Shown: positions 4,940 through 13,044 of the stretch, piece by piece
Layout of the letters: each line of letters opens with the position of its first letter
Position numbering within the stretch: position 1 is the first letter of the stretch
NCBI RefSeq assembly: GCF_900215605.1
Contig: NZ_OBEL01000001.1
Span: 1,922,001-1,986,000, forward strand
Origin: Cohaesibacter gelatinilyticus
GTDB lineage: Bacteria; Pseudomonadota; Alphaproteobacteria; Rhizobiales; Cohaesibacteraceae
Direction of reading: 5' to 3'
Length of the DNA: 64,000 nt
Notes under the pieces: generated by a model
What the model saw: only the letters and a program-made list of their open reading frames with translations
Databases searched by the model: none
What the model was told of the DNA's origin: nothing
Made by a program: the position numbers and the translations under genes

Positions 4940-5398
4940 CTATTCATCGCTCAGAACATCAAGGCTGACTTTTACCCTATCCATCACGACAGATGTCTTG
5001 AATTTCGAAACATTCGATTCCTGAAAAAAATATTCTCGCGTAAATTCTTCATATTCCTGCATATCCTGCAATTGAAGAATAAGAATAAAATCAGCCTCAC
5101 CAGTGATATAATAACATTGTTGAACCTGGGGACTTTTATTCATTTTTTGCTTGAAAGCATTCAAGACCGCCAGATTCTCTCTCTCCAGCGACACTTCTAC
5201 AATGACGATCTGCTTCCTATCGAGCGCATTGCCATCCAGAACAGCAATTTCTTTCTGAATGACCCCGGATTCTTTCAGCTTTTTCAGGCGCTTTTGAACG
5301 GCAGGTCCGGATAATCCAACTTTTTGTCCAATGATATCAGCCGTCAAGCGTGTATCTCTTTGGACGAGGACTAGTATCCGTCGATCGAATTGGTCCAT
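4940..5398 (-). CDS. Lrp/AsnC family transcriptional regulator
   Basis: A 152-residue regulator. An N-terminal helix-turn-helix (DRRILVLVQRDTRLTADIIG, then KVGLSGPAVQKRLKKLKESG) is followed by an RAM ligand-sensing domain that ends in the usual TSVVMDRVK strand. I chose the ATG at 5398 (MDQFDRRIL), which matches the family start. The upstream frame to 5473 adds residues that do not fit. It is divergent from the M20 amidohydrolase at 5527 and probably controls that catabolic cluster in response to an amino-acid-like compound. Ectoine degradation clusters also commonly carry an AsnC-type regulator (AsnC/DoeX), which fits the resemblance of the neighbouring genes. The ligand is not known. Confidence 0.9.
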   Translation of the reverse strand: MDQFDRRILVLVQRDTRLTADIIGQKVGLSGPAVQKRLKKLKESGVIQKEIAVLDGNALDRKQIVIVEVSLERENLAVLNAFKQKMNKSPQVQQCYYITGEADFILILQLQDMQEYEEFTREYFFQESNVSKFKTSVVMDRVKVSLDVLSDE

Positions 5399-5526
5399 TT
5401 CCGTTCTCCATATCAATCGAGACAGATAAATACGCCCTCCGGAAAAAATCAAGCCAATTACGATCAAATCCATCGCAATACACCTGATAACCTGCTTGAA
5501 ATCTCAAATCAGGGAGGCGATGAGAT

Positions 5527-6684
5527 TTGTTTCTTACCGAAAAAACCATAGATTTCATGCGAACCCATAGACAGGATTTTCATCAAAATCCCGAACTTGG
5601 TTTTCAGGAAATACGCACGAAACAGAAGATTGTCAAAGCCCTGACTGAAATGGGAATTGAAGTATCGGAAGGTGTTGGCGTTACAGGGATCCTGTCCAAT
5701 GGATCAGGGTCAGGAATGATTGGTTTGAGAGCAGATATGGATGCCTTGCCGATCTCTGAAACCACCAGTCTTCCATATGCTTCTCAAAAGGATGAGATCA
5801 TGCATGCCTGTGGCCACGATGGTCATATGGCCATGCTTTTAGGCGCGGCCAGACACCTTTCCTCTGAACGGAACTTCGACGGAACAGTGGTTTTTATTTT
5901 TCAACCCAACGAGGAAAACGGATTGGGGTCCCAAGCAATGCTTGATGAAGGATTTCTCTCAAGATTTCCGCTGGATGAAGTCTACGCTCTTCACAACCTG
6001 CCCGGTGCACCATTAGGGCAGCTCTCTACCCGTGTGGGGGAGATCTGTGCCAGCGAAAGCCTCTTCGAACTGAAAATTACTGCACGAGGCGGCCACTCTG
6101 CAATGCCACACAAAGGGGTAGATGCCATAATCGTGGGTTCAGAACTTGCCTTGTCCCTGCAGACCATCATTTCCAGAAAATTGCCTCCAGAGGCCGGAGC
6201 CGTCCTCTCCATAACCGAGTTCATGACAAATGGTCAGCGAAACATATTACCTGGCAGTGGTTTGCTGAAAGGTGACACAAGAGCATTCTCAAAAGCAGAT
6301 CGGAAAGCGATTGAGTTCTATATCCGTCAAATTGCATCCGGAATATCACAAGCGCACGATGTCGACATTCAGGTCACATTCGAGACCGAGTTTATCGAAA
6401 CCATCAATGCTCCAACCCCAACAGAAGCGGCATGCCGGACAGCATCAAAGTTGGGATACGATCTCATACCGGATCGCCAACCGATGAGTTTTTCCGAAGA
6501 CTTCGCCAATTTCTCCAAACTGGTTCCCGGCAGCTTTCTTTTGCTGGGTAATGGCACCGTCGGTGCCGCAAGCAAACCCTTGCATTCCAGTGAATATGAC
6601 TTCAACGACGACGCCCTGCCAATAGGTGCAAACTTTTGGGTCAACCTTGTTTCTGACCGACTACCTCTCAAGGATTGTGCATGA
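5527..6684 (+). CDS. M20 family amidohydrolase (N-acyl amino acid deacylase type)
   Basis: A 385-residue zinc-dependent M20 peptidase/aminoacylase of the hippurate-hydrolase group. Metal-site motifs are present: HACGHDGH (about residues 93-100, with Cys95 and His97), the Glu pair in NEENG (129-130) and the His of ALHNLPG (156). A lid/dimerisation domain follows from about residue 180. The start is a TTG at 5527, chosen because AGGGAGG lies about 9 bases upstream. The next ATG (5557) has no such site. The final codons overlap the next gene (ATGA at 6681-6684). It probably removes an acyl group from a diamino acid derivative that the downstream lyase then breaks down. It replaces the M14-type deacetylase (DoeB/EutE) of ectoine clusters. 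The substrate is inferred. Confidence 0.9.
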   Translation: MFLTEKTIDFMRTHRQDFHQNPELGFQEIRTKQKIVKALTEMGIEVSEGVGVTGILSNGSGSGMIGLRADMDALPISETTSLPYASQKDEIMHACGHDGHMAMLLGAARHLSSERNFDGTVVFIFQPNEENGLGSQAMLDEGFLSRFPLDEVYALHNLPGAPLGQLSTRVGEICASESLFELKITARGGHSAMPHKGVDAIIVGSELALSLQTIISRKLPPEAGAVLSITEFMTNGQRNILPGSGLLKGDTRAFSKADRKAIEFYIRQIASGISQAHDVDIQVTFETEFIETINAPTPTEAACRTASKLGYDLIPDRQPMSFSEDFANFSKLVPGSFLLLGNGTVGAASKPLHSSEYDFNDDALPIGANFWVNLVSDRLPLKDCA

Positions 6685-7877
6685 TGCTCCAAATATCTAA
6701 CCCTGAAACTCTGTCTCATGTCGCTGCGAAAATGGATAAGGGTAATGCCGCAGACAAGATGATACCCAAAGAGAGATTTCAAGATGCCATCAGCGAAATT
6801 CAATCTTGGGATGGTTACGAGGCCACACCACTTTTCAAACTGAAACATCTCGCAACCTTATTGAACATCAACAGCATTCATTACAAACATGAAGGACCTA
6901 GATTCAACCTTGGTAGTTTCAAAGCTTTGGGCGGATCTTATGCAGCATTGCAAGTGCTTGTCCGTGAACTGTCAGATCGTCTGGGCAAACAGGTACAACC
7001 CGAAGATATCCGCAAAGGCAAATATGCAGCCGAAGTCAGCAATATCACACTGGTAAGTGCCACAGATGGCAATCACGGCCGATCCCTTGCTTGGGGGTGC
7101 CAACAATTCCAGGCTCCATGCCGCATATATATACATGCCGAAGTAAGCGAGAACCGAGCCAAAGCAATGTCCGATCTGGGCGCAACAGTCATCCGCATCC
7201 AGGGCGATTATGATGAATCTGTCCGACTGGCACGCCAGGAAGCAGAGGAAAACGGCTGGTTTGTCGTCTCGGATACATCTTGGGAAGGCTACACGGAACC
7301 GCCAAAGGATGTAATGGCCGGATATGGTGTCATGACCCATGAAATTTGTGCGGAATTGTCATCTCCTCCCACACACGTATTCCTTCAAGGAGGCGTGGGT
7401 GGTCTGGCCGCATCTGTGGCTGCATATTTCCGTCAACACTGGCAGGACCAGAGCCCAAAAGTGGTTATTGTCGAACCTGAATTGTCAGCTTGCCTCTTCG
7501 AAAGTGCAAAATCAGGTCACGTTAAAAAGGTCGACATTGAGAAGGAAACCTTGATGGCGGGCTTGTCCTGCGGGGAACCCTCCCCGATTGCGTGGGCAAT
7601 CCTGCACGAAGAGGCAAGTGATTTCCTCACATTACCAGAAAGCGCAGTTGGCCCTGCAGTACGTCTTCTTGCAAGACCATTGGGCGGCGATCCCTCGATT
7701 GAAGCAGGCGAAAGCGCGGTCGCAGGTCTTGCCGCTCTCATAATGGCATCCAATCACAACGAGTTGCGTTCCAAACTGGGATTAAATGAGCAATCAAGCG
7801 TTCTTCTGATTGGTTCAGAAGGAATAACCGATCCATTGGTCTACCAGCAACTGGTCTCAGAGGTAGTAAATGCTTGA
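6681..7877 (+). CDS. dpaL: Diaminopropionate ammonia-lyase family, PLP enzyme
   Basis: A 398-residue fold-type II PLP enzyme matching diaminopropionate ammonia-lyase (YgeX/DpaL), which turns 2,3-diaminopropionate into pyruvate and two ammonia. The PLP lysine lies in NLGSFKALGG (Lys81). The two aspartates I recall as catalytic in the E. coli enzyme have counterparts at Asp129 (SATDGNHGR) and Asp198 (VSDTSWEGY), which argues for true lyase activity rather than threonine dehydratase. The ATG at 6681 overlaps the previous stop. The TTG at 6675 is an alternative start. Its own stop overlaps the next start by eight bases. Ectoine clusters have the threonine-dehydratase-like EutB at this place, so this is the distinctive gene of the cluster. 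Confidence 0.9.
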   Translation: MMLQISNPETLSHVAAKMDKGNAADKMIPKERFQDAISEIQSWDGYEATPLFKLKHLATLLNINSIHYKHEGPRFNLGSFKALGGSYAALQVLVRELSDRLGKQVQPEDIRKGKYAAEVSNITLVSATDGNHGRSLAWGCQQFQAPCRIYIHAEVSENRAKAMSDLGATVIRIQGDYDESVRLARQEAEENGWFVVSDTSWEGYTEPPKDVMAGYGVMTHEICAELSSPPTHVFLQGGVGGLAASVAAYFRQHWQDQSPKVVIVEPELSACLFESAKSGHVKKVDIEKETLMAGLSCGEPSPIAWAILHEEASDFLTLPESAVGPAVRLLARPLGGDPSIEAGESAVAGLAALIMASNHNELRSKLGLNEQSSVLLIGSEGITDPLVYQQLVSEVVNA

Positions 7878-9042
7878 TATCTCTGCACCTCGTGGCTTCC
7901 CAACAAGAGAATTCGAACATCGCTTGGAAAAAGCCCAGTATCTCATGAGATCACATGGACTGGACGGCATATTGCTAACCAGTGAGGCAGAACTGCGCTA
8001 TTTCTCGGGATTTATGACCCAGTTCTGGCAGAGCCCTACCCGTCCATGGTTCATGTTTTTGCCGCTCGAAGGAAAACCTGTCGCCGTAATACCCGAGATC
8101 GGCCGCGACCTGATGAGTCGAACCTGGCTTGACGACATCAGAACCTGGAGTTCCCCGGAACCGGAAGATGACGGTATCAGTCTGCTGCATGAACTATTGT
8201 CTCTCTATGCACAACAGCGATGCACAATCGGCATCATGAAGGGAGCTGAAACAAGTCTACGCATGCCATTGGCTGATTATGAGCACCTCATGACCAGACT
8301 ACCAGGTTTGAATTTGGTAGACGCCACACCAATCATCAAGACCTTGCGCATGACAAAATCCGAAGCAGAGATTGAGAAGATTGGCCATATCTGTGCAATT
8401 GCATCATTAAGTTTTGCTCAGGCCCATAATCTTTTCAGCGAAGGGCAATCCCTTCAGGAAGCATTCCGGGCTTTCAAAGTCGAAATTCTCAAACAAGGGG
8501 CAGATGACATCCCTTATCTCGTTGGCGGAGCTGGCAAGGGAGGATACCGAGACGTAATTTCCCCTCCAACAGAACAGCCTTTGCAATCTGGCGACATTCT
8601 GATGTTGGATACCGGGTCCGTTTTCGATGGATATTACTGCGATTTTGATCGCAATTTCGCAATCAACTCAGCTGATGATGATGCTCGGGCAACCTACGAA
8701 ACACTCTATCGGGCAACCGAAGCAGGTCTGAATGCGGCAAGACCAGGTACAAGCTGCAAAGACTTGTTTTGCGCCATGCAAAGCATCATCGACACCCAAG
8801 AATCCGAGCGCGGAAATGTTGGCCGCCTTGGCCACGGTCTTGGAATGCAACTGACCGAATGGCCTTCGCACGCCATGTTCGATGACACGATATTACAGGA
8901 AAACATGGTCATCACTTTGGAACCTTCCATGTCTTACGGCGAAGGAAAGGTCATGGTTCATGAGGAAAATCTGGTTGTAAGAGATGGCCCTCCTCTTCTT
9001 CTTTCCACGCGTGCTCCGGCCGAGTTACCGGTAATTGGATAG
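7870..9042 (+). CDS. M24 family hydrolase, ectoine-hydrolase/Xaa-Pro aminopeptidase like
   Basis: A 390-residue creatinase-fold (M24) protein. The N-terminal creatinase domain spans roughly residues 15-155 and the pita-bread catalytic domain about 165-385. All five metal ligands of the M24 site are visible: Asp247, Asp258, His322, Glu351 and Glu365. In ectoine catabolism the homologous position is held by EutD/DoeA, which opens the ectoine ring. Here it lies between a diaminopropionate lyase and a EutA-like protein, so a ring-opening or amidase role on a related compound is likely. An ordinary dipeptidase cannot be ruled out from sequence alone. It is translationally coupled to the upstream lyase. 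Confidence 0.87.
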   Translation: MLDISAPRGFPTREFEHRLEKAQYLMRSHGLDGILLTSEAELRYFSGFMTQFWQSPTRPWFMFLPLEGKPVAVIPEIGRDLMSRTWLDDIRTWSSPEPEDDGISLLHELLSLYAQQRCTIGIMKGAETSLRMPLADYEHLMTRLPGLNLVDATPIIKTLRMTKSEAEIEKIGHICAIASLSFAQAHNLFSEGQSLQEAFRAFKVEILKQGADDIPYLVGGAGKGGYRDVISPPTEQPLQSGDILMLDTGSVFDGYYCDFDRNFAINSADDDARATYETLYRATEAGLNAARPGTSCKDLFCAMQSIIDTQESERGNVGRLGHGLGMQLTEWPSHAMFDDTILQENMVITLEPSMSYGEGKVMVHEENLVVRDGPPLLLSTRAPAELPVIG

Positions 9043-9046
9043 ACCA

Positions 9047-9814
9047 ATGAAGTTACCTTTTACGACAGATGATGGCATAGGAAGCACGGCCACCTTGGGG
9101 GTTGTCGTTCTTCAGACAGATCAAACAATCGAGCATGAGTTTGCAAGAATTTGTACGGATGACGGAATAAGCCTGCATCATACCCGTATTCCAATGTGCC
9201 CGGAAATCACGCCGACAACATTGATGAATATGCTGGCGGACCTACCCAGTTCAGTGTCGCTGTTATCCAATTCAAACAATTACGACGTCATTGGATATGC
9301 CTGCACCTCTGCAGCAACCGTCATCGGTTCGGAAAAGATTCAAACAGCAATACAGCAAATACACCCAAACACTTTGGTCACAGATCCGCTGGACAGCCTG
9401 ATTGCAGCTTGCAAGGCTCTGGAAATAGAAAAAATCGCATTCATAAGTCCTTACATCGCCTCGGTTTCCGAGCAACTAAGAGAAAAACTGACTAAGGCGG
9501 GATTGCAAATCACTTCCTTCGCATCCTTTGAAGAAGGAGACGACGATGTTGTCGCCCGTATTTCTCCCAGCTCGGTTCTTGAGGCTATCAAAACAATTTC
9601 TCAAACAGAGGATTGCGACGCAATCATCGTTTCCTGCACCAATCTTCGAATTTTGGAAATTCTGAACAACGCTGAGTACTGTTCTGGAAAACCGGTGATT
9701 TCAAGCAATCTGGCCTTGGCTTGGAACATGTTGCGCCTGGCACAGGCTCTGCCCTGTCGGAACGATCTAGGCCAGCTTTTCAGGCAATGCGGCTCCAAAT
9801 CACCGCCCCTTTGA
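9047..9814 (+). CDS. EutA-like Asp/Glu racemase / arylmalonate decarboxylase family protein
   Basis: A 255-residue protein of the Asp/Glu racemase superfamily, in the maleate isomerase/AMDase/EutA branch. The two cysteines that face each other in this fold are present at Cys86 (GYACTSAATVIG) and Cys197 (IIVSCTNLRI). The HHTRIPMCPEITPTTL segment also matches what I remember of EutA from ectoine/hydroxyectoine clusters. It probably inverts or isomerises a chiral carbon of the substrate. I chose the ATG at 9047, just after the previous stop; a TTG at 9035 would overlap that gene. It is the last enzyme gene before the TRAP transporter. Confidence 0.85.
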   Translation: MKLPFTTDDGIGSTATLGVVVLQTDQTIEHEFARICTDDGISLHHTRIPMCPEITPTTLMNMLADLPSSVSLLSNSNNYDVIGYACTSAATVIGSEKIQTAIQQIHPNTLVTDPLDSLIAACKALEIEKIAFISPYIASVSEQLREKLTKAGLQITSFASFEEGDDDVVARISPSSVLEAIKTISQTEDCDAIIVSCTNLRILEILNNAEYCSGKPVISSNLALAWNMLRLAQALPCRNDLGQLFRQCGSKSPPL

Positions 9815-9853
9815 AAAGCCAAAGCAGTCACATGAATTCAGGGAGGAGTTCAC

Positions 9854-9925
9854 ATGAAGGCTCGAAACAGAAGCCATAACCTCATCGTTCATCAGCTTGA
9901 ACGGGTAGCAACGACAACAATCTGA
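9854..9925 (+). CDS. Candidate 23-residue leader ORF upstream of the TRAP genes
   Basis: A short frame (MKARNRSHNLIVHQLERVAT and three more residues) begins 5 bases after a very strong ribosome-binding site, AGGGAGGAG at 9840-9848. This is a better site than that of any real gene nearby. It ends 71 bases before the binding-protein gene. The 9-base word TCACATGAA occurs just before the site (9828-9836) and again across the ATG (9850-9858). It may be a regulatory leader peptide, a translation enhancer, or the decayed start of a lost gene. No homology is recognisable. Confidence 0.3.
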   Translation: MKARNRSHNLIVHQLERVATTTI

Positions 9926-9996
9926 ATATCACCATCTCAACCATCTGCAATCACCAGACAATAGTCTCCAAAATGAGACGAAACGGGAGAAAACCA

Positions 9997-11046
9997 ATGA
10001 TACCATCAATTCGCAAGCTCTTTTTGACAGCGGCAATGACACTCGCCATCGGTTCCGCTGCAAGTGCAGAAACATGGAAGTTTGCAACTGAAGAGGACAA
10101 AAATGATGTCCAAGACATCTTTGCCAAAACCTTTGCGGAAACAATAAAAGAAGAATCCGGCGGTGATATCAAAGTTCGTATTTTCTACTACGGACAATTG
10201 GGAACAGAAAACGACATCGTCGAGTTGACCGCAAAAGGCACATTGCAATTCGTATCCGTTGGTACGGGCCATCTTGGATCCTATATACCCGAAGTACAGG
10301 CCCTTAGTCTTCCTTACGTTCTGGGAACCGATGTTGATGTCGTACGTAAAATTCTGACCGGCAGCAAAACCATCTATAGCCAGCTAAGTGATCGTTTTGA
10401 GAAAGCAAATCTGAAACTTCTAACCATGATCTCTGAAGGAGAGATGGCATGGGGTGCCAACAAGGCCATTCGTACACCAGAAGACTTTTCTGGACAAAAA
10501 ATTCGGACATTCACATCCACGATTCCGGTCGAAACATACAAGGCATTCGGAGCGACACCTACTCCCCTGTCGTGGGGCGAAGTATATGGTGCGCTACAGC
10601 TTAAAACCGTCGATGGAATGGTCAATCCGGTCTACTTCATTTACAACGCCAAATGGCACGAAGTCCAAGATTACCTGATGTTCCCCGGCCAACAGCCTTA
10701 TGTTGGCACTGTTTCAACAAACAGCAAATGGTTCAATGCTCTGTCAGAAGAAAAGCAGGCAATGGTGCACAAGGCAATTACCGTGGCTGAACAGGCTGCT
10801 CATGATTATCAGCTGGAAATAAACCGCGAAAACATGGCCAAAATTCAGACCGAGCGGCCTGACCTTGAGGTTGTAATCCTGAATGACGATGAGCGCAGCC
10901 GCTTCAAAGATCTTTCCGCAGCACTTCATGAAACATTCTACAACGTTGTCGAAAACGCATATGCAGAATCGGAAAAAAGTGATGCCCGCGAGAACGCCAA
11001 AGGCATTCTGGAAAGCCTGATCCAGGAAGTCAAAGACGCCTCATAA
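9997..11046 (+). CDS. TRAP transporter substrate-binding protein, TeaA/UehA-like
   Basis: A 349-residue periplasmic solute-binding protein (DctP family) with a Sec signal peptide cleaved near ASAETW. From memory of the ectoine-binding protein TeaA, the resemblance is close: ETWKFATEE at the mature N terminus, EGEMAWGAN, KIRTFTS and ETYKAFGATPTPLSWGEVYG all have direct counterparts. The TeaA pocket residues Glu9 and Trp167 appear kept, whereas Phe66 and Trp188 are changed (to His and Phe by my alignment). This suggests a related but not identical ligand. The ATG at 9997 has GGGAG 8-12 bases upstream. A hairpin at 11064-11102 follows the gene. Confidence 0.92.
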   Translation: MIPSIRKLFLTAAMTLAIGSAASAETWKFATEEDKNDVQDIFAKTFAETIKEESGGDIKVRIFYYGQLGTENDIVELTAKGTLQFVSVGTGHLGSYIPEVQALSLPYVLGTDVDVVRKILTGSKTIYSQLSDRFEKANLKLLTMISEGEMAWGANKAIRTPEDFSGQKIRTFTSTIPVETYKAFGATPTPLSWGEVYGALQLKTVDGMVNPVYFIYNAKWHEVQDYLMFPGQQPYVGTVSTNSKWFNALSEEKQAMVHKAITVAEQAAHDYQLEINRENMAKIQTERPDLEVVILNDDERSRFKDLSAALHETFYNVVENAYAESEKSDARENAKGILESLIQEVKDAS

Positions 11047-11063
11047 GTCAAACTGATGATCGG

Positions 11064-11102
11064 AAAACGTGGCAAGGACCAATCATCCAATTGTCACGTT
11101 TT
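11064..11102 (+). terminator. Hairpin between TRAP binding protein and dctQ-like gene
   Basis: A 12-bp stem with one G-U pair (11064-11075 with 11091-11102) around a 15-base loop, ending in TTTT. It probably ends or slows most transcripts after the binding-protein gene, giving more binding protein than membrane subunits. Confidence 0.65.
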
Positions 11103-11162
11103 CTGGTTCCCCGCACGGTTTAGGAGCCGTAATCATAAACTAAGCAGATATGGACAGACCCC

Positions 11163-11699
11163 ATGAAAAAGATACTCCTCTGGCTTAGCAACGGCAGCGA
11201 ATTAATTGAAAAATTTGTAATTACCTTCTCGATTTTGCTGATAATGCTGAACTCTACTGCAAATGCAATTGGTCGATATGCTTTTGATAAAAGCCTTTTC
11301 TTTTCGGAAGAGCTCAATCAATTCTTGATTGTAGGAGTAACTTTTGTCGGATTTGCCTATGCGGTCCGCAAGGGGCGGAATATCCGCATGACTGCGCTGT
11401 ATGACACATTTGGATATACGGCAAAAAAAACTATTCTGACAATGATTTCAATCATCACAGGGGCCATCCTGATCTACCTGGCATATAAATCTGTCTTCTA
11501 TGTCATTGAAATCAAGGATATCAATCGCCTAAGCCCGGCCATGCAATTCCCCGTCTATATTATCTATTCCATCATTCCGCTTGGCCTTGGAATCGCAGGT
11601 TTACAATACCTGATCACGTTCCTCATGAATATCACTCACAAAGAAATCTATCTGTCACATGAAGTGATCGAATTCAGATCAGAAAACATAGGTGTATAG
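11163..11699 (+). CDS. TRAP transporter small membrane subunit (DctQ family)
   Basis: A 178-residue small permease of a tripartite ATP-independent (TRAP) transporter. Four hydrophobic segments are visible: about residues 17-37, 50-68, 88-112 and 125-150. The RKGRNIRMTALYD loop after the second segment is typical of the family. It works with the binding protein upstream and the large subunit downstream to import the substrate on a sodium or proton gradient. Its stop lies one base before the next ATG. Codon use is AT-rich, like the whole cluster. Confidence 0.9.
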   Translation: MKKILLWLSNGSELIEKFVITFSILLIMLNSTANAIGRYAFDKSLFFSEELNQFLIVGVTFVGFAYAVRKGRNIRMTALYDTFGYTAKKTILTMISIITGAILIYLAYKSVFYVIEIKDINRLSPAMQFPVYIIYSIIPLGLGIAGLQYLITFLMNITHKEIYLSHEVIEFRSENIGV

Positions 11700-11700
11700 C

Positions 11701-13044
11701 ATGGATATGTTTTTTGACTTTCTGAAAGACATCATAGATGGCGAGCTGGATATCTATGTAATAACCTTCACACTTCTTTTTACCATGATTATCCTGCTGT
11801 TTCTAAGCTTTCCAATGGTGGTACCTTTGGCCGCAGGGGCATTGATCGGGCTTGTACATTTTTCTGATATAGATACCGGTGTTATGATTCAGCAGATGGT
11901 AACCGGCATTTCGCCCAATGCCCTCATCGCCGTACCTATGTTCATTCTGGCAGCAGACATCATGGCAAGAGGGCATACCGCCCATAATTTGTTGGGATTG
12001 GTAGAAGCATTCGTCGGTCATCTTCGAGGTGGTCTACCGATCACTGCTTGCATAAGTTGCACCTTGTTTGGCTCGGTGTCCGGTTCCACTCAGGCAACCG
12101 TCGTCTCTGTTGGACAGATCATGCGCCCAAAGCTGTTGCAGGCGGGCTATAAAGATAGCTTTGTGATGGCGCTCATTATCAATGCCAGCGACATAGCTTT
12201 CCTCATTCCGCCCAGCATCGGCCTGATCCTCTATGGCACACTCGCAAATACCAGCGTTGCAGAATTGTTCATTGCAGGCATTGGTCCGGGAATTGTGCTG
12301 GCAATCCTTTTCTCCATTTATTGCTATGGATATAGCAGACTCCAGGGAGACCGCATCACTCTTGTTCCTCAAAAATCCAGAACCGAGAGAATTGCCGCTT
12401 TCAAAAAAGCACTATTACCGCTGGGCTTTCCCATACTGATTGTCGGAGGTATCTATTCCGGAGCCGTCACCCCTACCGAAGCCGCCTCATTTTCAGTTCT
12501 CTATGCCCTCATCGTGGAATGCTTGATTTACCGAGAATTGAAGCTTAAGGATATCCTTGATGCAGCATTGGGAACGGGCTTGATCACAGCAGTGGTATTC
12601 ATACTCGTCGGCATGGGTCAGGCATTTTCCTGGTATATTTCCTTCGAACAGATACCACAGGGTCTCCTTGCCCCACTCGAACTGGAAGGCGCATCAAAAG
12701 AATATATCCTGTTCATTATCGCATTGAGCTTCTTTATCGGCTGCATGTTTGTGGATTCATTGGTGGTTTTGGTCATCCTGACCCCAATCTTCGTACCCAT
12801 TGTTGCTGCTTCCGGTCTTGACCCGGTATTGGTTGGGGTAATGATCACTTTGCAAATGGCAATCGGATCGGCAACGCCACCCTTTGGGTGTGATATTTTC
12901 ACTGCGATAGCAATCTTCAACAAACCCTACATGGATGTCATAAGAGGCACACCGCCATTTATTATAATACTGGCCATCATGTCGGCTTTGTTGATCTTTG
13001 TTCCTGAAATTGCTCTGATTTTACGCGATTTGGCATTTACATAG
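11701..13044 (+). CDS. TRAP transporter large membrane subunit (DctM family)
   Basis: The 447-residue ion-coupled permease of the TRAP system, with about a dozen hydrophobic segments and the DctM signature stretches FGSVSGSTQATV, IPPSIGLILYG and TPTEAASFSVLYA. I chose the ATG at 11701, directly after the dctQ-like stop. A GTG at 11692 would overlap dctQ. It is the last gene of the cluster and is followed by a perfect bidirectional terminator (13186-13212). With the TeaA-like binding protein it should import the compound broken down by the upstream enzymes. Confidence 0.92.
   Translation: MDMFFDFLKDIIDGELDIYVITFTLLFTMIILLFLSFPMVVPLAAGALIGLVHFSDIDTGVMIQQMVTGISPNALIAVPMFILAADIMARGHTAHNLLGLVEAFVGHLRGGLPITACISCTLFGSVSGSTQATVVSVGQIMRPKLLQAGYKDSFVMALIINASDIAFLIPPSIGLILYGTLANTSVAELFIAGIGPGIVLAILFSIYCYGYSRLQGDRITLVPQKSRTERIAAFKKALLPLGFPILIVGGIYSGAVTPTEAASFSVLYALIVECLIYRELKLKDILDAALGTGLITAVVFILVGMGQAFSWYISFEQIPQGLLAPLELEGASKEYILFIIALSFFIGCMFVDSLVVLVILTPIFVPIVAASGLDPVLVGVMITLQMAIGSATPPFGCDIFTAIAIFNKPYMDVIRGTPPFIIILAIMSALLIFVPEIALILRDLAFT

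Follow-up and report, generated by a model that had tools for sequence, protein, structure and literature searches.

A widespread bacterial gene module with a diaminopropionate ammonia-lyase-type enzyme, allied to ectoine catabolism

Hydantoin utilisation combines a racemase, a ring hydrolase and an M20 carbamoylase. Ectoine catabolic (eut) clusters bring together an AsnC/Lrp regulator, an M24 hydrolase, a deacylase, an EutA-family protein, a fold-type-II pyridoxal phosphate (PLP) enzyme and a Ueh-type tripartite ATP-independent periplasmic (TRAP) transporter. In E. coli uric acid degradation, the M20 enzyme YgeY and the diaminopropionate ammonia-lyase (DAPAL) YgeX lead to pyruvate (PMC12507026). 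Features of all three systems meet in an eight-gene cluster of Cohaesibacter gelatinilyticus at positions 4940–13044 of the window, the 64,000-nucleotide stretch analysed here (contig NZ_OBEL01000001.1, positions 1,922,001 to 1,986,000). The cluster is a real, conserved and mobile catabolic module. We give slightly better than even weight to the reading that it takes up and degrades a small zwitterion that resembles ectoine, without being ectoine, and that yields diaminopropionate and from it pyruvate and ammonia. The gene set seems to be widespread in bacteria and undescribed; the open-access literature gave no relevant paper joining DAPAL with ectoine catabolism.

Recurrence and gene content of the module

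The M24 hydrolase served as the marker in a search of 289 alphaproteobacterial genomes, and genome contigs were scanned as well, which added 80 loci that carry organism names (handles beginning with L and G denote loci and genomes). The window-type M24 is present in 41 of the 289 genomes. Neighbours were counted within 9 kb of M24 at 118 loci: EutA is found at 84, long DAPAL at 53, a short DAPAL relative (DAPALs) at 25, Lrp at 43 and M20 at 41. One or the other DAPAL type stands near M24 at 78 of these loci, and the reading of a DAPAL-type lyase as the recurring last enzyme is supported. The window order, with Lrp divergent from M20-DAPAL-M24-EutA, is repeated in Pelagimonas, Aliiroseovarius, Falsiruegeria, Shimia and others, many of them Rhodobacterales. 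M20D orthologues (45–64% identical) occupy the same place in other genomes, and Lrp, with 48 clustered homologues, is a conserved divergent neighbour. A TRAP transporter 62–87% identical to that of the window adjoins the module in Roseibium, Labrenzia and Ruegeria; its M subunits are 82–87% identical in these genera, and Q subunits 62–71% identical adjoin the module in other genomes. All eight genes lie on a Photobacterium plasmid. A Vibrio plasmid carries a version with an equivalog-grade DAPAL, RidA, M24, a BCCT carrier and M20, while the Aminobacter version has a cystathionine-beta-lyase-type enzyme with EutA, M24 and M20. Because the marker occurs in about one in seven of the sampled alphaproteobacterial genomes and also on plasmids, the substrate is expected to be common in nature.

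One variant (L138:4950-9960; also L140, L145, L128 and L131) includes a DMGDH-like oxidoreductase of 810 aa, a second EutA-like gene and a regulator of the GntR-UTRA type. Its ABC transporter is EhuB-like (170 bits, cut-off 191), and some of these loci add a PhyH-type dioxygenase; the composition suggests an N-methylated form of the substrate. No EutA relatives were found in viral contigs.

The PLP lysine and both catalytic aspartates of the window lyase align with K77, D120 and D189 of E. coli YgeX, as the initial annotation had read them (81, 129 and 198 counted from the internal ATG; 83, 131 and 200 from the listed TTG). The Vibrio plasmid DAPAL exceeds the equivalog cut-off of TIGR03528 (565 bits, cut-off 532) and adjoins a RidA gene; RidA handles 2-aminoacrylate. 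The kept residues, the Vibrio enzyme with its RidA neighbour and the E. coli precedent point to 2,3-diaminopropionate as the probable lyase substrate. Orthology of DAPALs with the long DAPAL was rejected, since DAPALs is a divergent type that has lost the aspartate aligning with YgeX D120.

In the M24 hydrolase, all five metal ligands claimed earlier are found (D247, D258, H322, E351 and E365/E366), and they are invariant, with an N-terminal FW.SP.RPW motif, across 19 aligned homologues. Aligned EutD sequences lack these ligands. The protein scores 38 bits with the EutD model (TIGR02993, cut-off 613) and 105 bits with an archaeal prolidase model; score and retained ligands together rule it out as an EutD orthologue. 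The idea of an ectoine-hydrolase-type ring opener is accordingly not borne out: since M24 keeps the ligands that EutD has lost, any hydrolysis of a ring or amide by M24 would use the dimetal site, unlike in EutD. A predicted model (pLDDT 89) superimposes about equally on Xaa-Pro dipeptidase (Z 40.0), EutD (39.6) and creatinase (37.5); the predicted fold does not discriminate among them, and the active site, as read from the alignment, does.

The M20D protein scores 299 bits with the DoeB2 model, below its cut-off of 550, and equally high with the general amidohydrolase model (Table 1). In the EutA-like protein, C90 and C201 are invariant in 91 sequences, two canonical EutAs included, a pair such as would be expected of racemases or epimerases. 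The name EutA-like is correct, but the protein does not reach the curated EutA level (168 bits, cut-off 318).

The eight genes named in the initial annotation are all present at their positions (Table 1). Its description of them as all coupled holds for the four enzyme genes, whose successive overlaps (M20/DAPAL/M24/EutA) measure 10, 8 and 8 bases, and for the TRAP Q and M genes, which overlap by 8 bases; it does not hold for the divergent Lrp gene, whose true start is probably an internal ATG near 5401. The gene for the TRAP binding protein (P) begins 158 bases 3′ of EutA, and Q begins 116 bases 3′ of P.

Table 1. Genes of the module in the window.
Feature	Position	Strand	Assignment and features
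Lrp/AsnC-family regulator	4940..5473	-	PF01037/PF13404; divergent from the enzyme genes
M20D amidohydrolase (deacylase)	5527..6684	+	TIGR01891, 301 bits, above cut-off
DAPAL-type PLP lyase	6675..7877	+	NF006058, 484 bits (cut-off 276)
M24 (pita-bread) hydrolase, module marker gene	7870..9042	+	PF00557/PF01321; five metal ligands
EutA-like Asp/Glu-racemase-fold protein	9035..9814	+	TIGR02990, 168 bits (cut-off 318); two cysteines
TRAP substrate-binding protein (P), UehA/TeaA group	9973..11046	+	PDB sequence matches
TRAP small permease (Q)	11163..11699	+	PF04290
TRAP large permease (M)	11692..13044	+	PF06808, TIGR00786

The transporter and the tie to ectoine catabolism

The best solved relatives of the binding protein are UehA (3fxb, 221 bits) and TeaA (3gyy and 2vpn, 220 and 211 bits), followed by 4pfi (191 bits) and a next group at 121 bits, in keeping with its description as TeaA-like. 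Relative to UehA and TeaA, the binding proteins of five module TRAP transporters all show changes of SPGF to G[TA]GH, of ENP to VNP and of HGWF/HNNF to a Q.PY-type sequence, with an aromatic F changed to Y; other positions in the pocket region are kept. Some of the changed positions probably line the pocket of TeaA. Given these changes, the ligand of the module transporter may differ from ectoine. The carriers at other loci are of the Ehu-type ABC, BCCT (Vibrio) or polyamine type, the last often beside a creatinase. UehA/TeaA-type TRAP, Ehu-type ABC and BCCT transporters are compatible-solute transporter families, and the relatives of the window transporter suggest an ectoine-like shape for the substrate.

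A creatinase and the M24 module repeatedly have a PotABCD-like ABC transporter next to them (L119, L125, L134, L143, L155, L054, L065 and L068; the creatinase of L125 scores 522 bits against 1chm), which is possibly a creatine importer. The second large M24 protein in some module loci is a creatinase and does not belong to the core.

Across the 289 genomes, M24 is present in 28 of the 34 that have EutD (odds ratio 87, p 2.6e-23; the sampled genomes are phylogenetically non-independent, so that p-values are indicative only). An unrelated lifestyle control, the sulfoacetaldehyde acetyltransferase gene xsc, gives an odds ratio of 9.6. The tie is also physical: EutD lies within about 13 kb of M24 in five genomes. 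At L046, DAPALs-M24-EutA immediately precedes genuine eutD and eutE genes, which score 756 and 559 bits; the arrangement is repeated, with close homologues, at L047. In G168 the module and eutBCDE-lrp-ssd form one stretch, and G154 and G281 are further cases of linkage within about 13 kb. Within 9 kb of M24, EutD is found at 6 and EutE at 5 of the 118 loci. The genome search thus supports separateness from eut/doe clusters as regards position at most loci, not as regards genomes, which usually hold EutD as well: of the 28 module genomes with names, EutD is present in 25 and EutB in nine (E<=1e-100).

The module is not a simple swap for EutABC, being about equally frequent among EutD genomes with EutB (14 of 18) and without it (14 of 16). 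Both EutB and EutD accompany the module in 14 of the 289 genomes, and five module genomes (Leisingera, Labrenzia, Pelagibius and Stappia) hold EutB and EutD both above curated cut-offs; a plasmid of Leisingera aquaemixtae, from a different strain of a species among those five, carries a canonical uehPQM-usp-eutABCDE set. Because these five genomes carry the module in addition to canonical eutB and eutD, it probably does more than provide an ectoine route. A second complete route for one solute would seem wasteful, which makes a different substrate likelier.

The window cluster itself lies outside the eut/doe type, both for EutD/DoeA (38 bits, cut-off 613) and for the deacetylase (DoeB2, 299 bits, cut-off 550). 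None of its open reading frames encodes EutB or EutC, as had been said, or a 2,4-diaminobutyrate aminotransferase or dehydrogenase, and neither EutD (at E<=1e-100) nor EctC (at E<=1e-8) is present in the C. gelatinilyticus genome. The picture drawn initially, of a catabolic cluster allied to eut/doe yet distinct from it and served by an ectoine-type transporter, agrees with these results.

Other ectoine-related arrangements were also seen. Elsewhere in C. gelatinilyticus (G000:C5:108700-116150; L173:8208-15646), EutB-like and EutC-like genes accompany an amino-acid ABC transporter, an aminotransferase and an AstE/EutE-like gene, with no EutD; the EutB-like and EutE-like proteins fall below curated ectoine cut-offs (EutE-like 297 bits, cut-off 403), and the stretch probably encodes a pathway for a different N-acyl amino acid. 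In several Rhodobacterales (L183-L186 and L189), EutD (56–59% to reference EutDs) is accompanied by a class-III aminotransferase 75–77% identical to that of L065, with no EutB or EutC nearby, and at L177 the companion of EutD is an ArgE-type deacetylase; a dispersed ectoine route is suggested. Two genomes, G114 and G217 (L198:7869-8654, L199 and L203), have more than 30 M24 candidates and three to four EutD each, with several proteins of about 275 aa that consist of two fused EctC-type domains, an unusual expansion of ectoine-related families.

Candidate substrate and rival explanations

In the proposed pathway, the Lrp protein would sense the substrate or a breakdown product and the TRAP transporter would import the substrate. 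The dimetal M24 enzyme could then cleave a first C-N bond, in a cyclic amidine or an amide, the EutA-like protein might epimerise the substrate or an intermediate at its alpha carbon, and M20D would remove the remaining acyl group. The PLP lyase would finally carry out beta-amino elimination from 2,3-diaminopropionate, or an N-beta-substituted form of it, to give pyruvate and ammonia. The initial proposal of an ectoine-like substrate built on 2,3-diaminopropionate is plausible in outline, but its example of a five-membered ring is not supported: the five-membered-ring ectoine DHMICA is a synthetic compound according to PMC6890836, and no biosynthetic counterpart came to light when a limited set of EctC neighbourhoods was inspected. 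EctC occurs in 27 of the 289 genomes, and at 17 EctC loci no ornithine-cyclodeaminase-type or PALP-type partner appeared at the BLAST threshold used, which is weak negative evidence. DHMICA would be compatible with every proposed step, its ring size being a guess, and N-acyl-diaminopropionates or breakdown products of hydroxyectoine would fit nearly as well. We know of no natural ectoine-like zwitterion that ends as diaminopropionate. That the substrate is a natural, unrecognised compatible solute based on diaminopropionate (for example a five-membered-ring ectoine homologue), common in the sea and soils and served by a dedicated pathway in many ectoine consumers, is a speculative extension to which we give little credence.

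Several observations weigh against an ectoine-like, diaminopropionate-yielding substrate. The window lyase falls short of the stricter DAPAL model (TIGR03528, 332 bits, cut-off 532), and DAPALs has lost a catalytic aspartate. Many M24 loci have no M20, and 25 of the 118 have no other core gene within 9 kb, to which short contigs and distant homologues contribute. An ectoine-consumer lifestyle accounts for part of the co-occurrence of M24 with EutD, and the sampled genomes lack phylogenetic independence.

The main rival is a side branch of ectoine/5-hydroxyectoine degradation, in which hydroxyectoine would be opened by M24 or EutD and then deacetylated by M20 or EutE. The lyase would remove the 3-hydroxyl from 3-hydroxy-2,4-diaminobutyrate by elimination and so fill the role proposed for EutABC. 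The position of DAPALs-M24-EutA ahead of eutD-eutE at L046 and L047, the single stretch in G168 and the scarcity of EutB beside frequent EutD in the named module genomes all fit such a branch, as does EutA, which is common to eut clusters and whose module versions in Photobacterium and L066 group with a canonical EutA. The coexistence of the module with both EutB and EutD, its like frequency with and without EutB, and its presence in the window genome without EutD speak against it, and so do the altered pocket region of the TRAP binding protein and the retention of both DAPAL aspartates in the window lyase. On balance we hold this branch to be rather unlikely, though a serious competitor.

Less probable still is a linear substrate (an N-acyl-diaminopropionate, a diaminopropionate (pseudo)dipeptide or a beta-N-substituted form such as β-N-methylamino-L-alanine (BMAA) conjugates), with M24 as a prolidase-like dipeptidase and M20 as an aminoacylase. 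The kept dimetal site, prolidases as nearest profiles and the aminoacylases among M20D enzymes would suit it, and DAPAL takes both stereoisomers of its substrate (PMC12507026). The binding protein, however, belongs to the ectoine TRAP group, Ehu and BCCT carry solutes rather than peptides, an EutA-like partner and co-occurrence with EutD would be unexpected for peptides, and the predicted M24 model is structurally as near to EutD, and nearly as near to creatinase, as to prolidase. A route that reaches diaminopropionate by way of purines, as in E. coli ygeWXY-hyuA, has the M20 and DAPAL ending in common with the module; it was ruled out as exceedingly improbable, for the cluster has no homologue of xanthine dehydrogenase, YgfK, SsnA, HyuA or YgeW, and such a route has no place for M24, EutA or an ectoine-type TRAP transporter.

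Comparison with known systems

The reading we favour, degradation of an ectoine-like zwitterion through diaminopropionate, offers a testable function for an M24 family that databases name only 'Xaa-Pro peptidase family protein', and the module is of interest for EutA, whose biochemistry is unsettled. Should the substrate be found, the known solutes of sea and soil could gain a new member, and the module may point to an unnoticed nutrient.

The module shares with the eut ectoine cluster every component class listed at the outset. Its M24 is not EutD, however, M20D replaces the AstE-type EutE and DAPAL replaces EutB; EutC, Ssd and Atf are missing, and the pocket region of the transporter is changed. 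Within the creatinase/prolidase branch of M24, the fold is the same and prolidase has the same set of dimetal ligands, whereas the window M24 has its own FW.SP.RPW motif and is 19–24% identical to solved members. With the reductive uric-acid cluster of E. coli (ygeW-ygeX-ygeY-hyuA) the module has in common an M20 deacylase feeding DAPAL, and pyruvate and ammonia as end products; it differs in having no purine or hydantoin enzymes, in using M20D instead of YgeY, and in its M24, EutA and TRAP genes. The logic of racemase, ring hydrolase and M20 amidohydrolase is generally familiar from hydantoin utilisation, but here the ring hydrolase would be an M24 protein rather than a hydantoinase of the amidohydrolase superfamily, and the module adds a lyase and a transporter.

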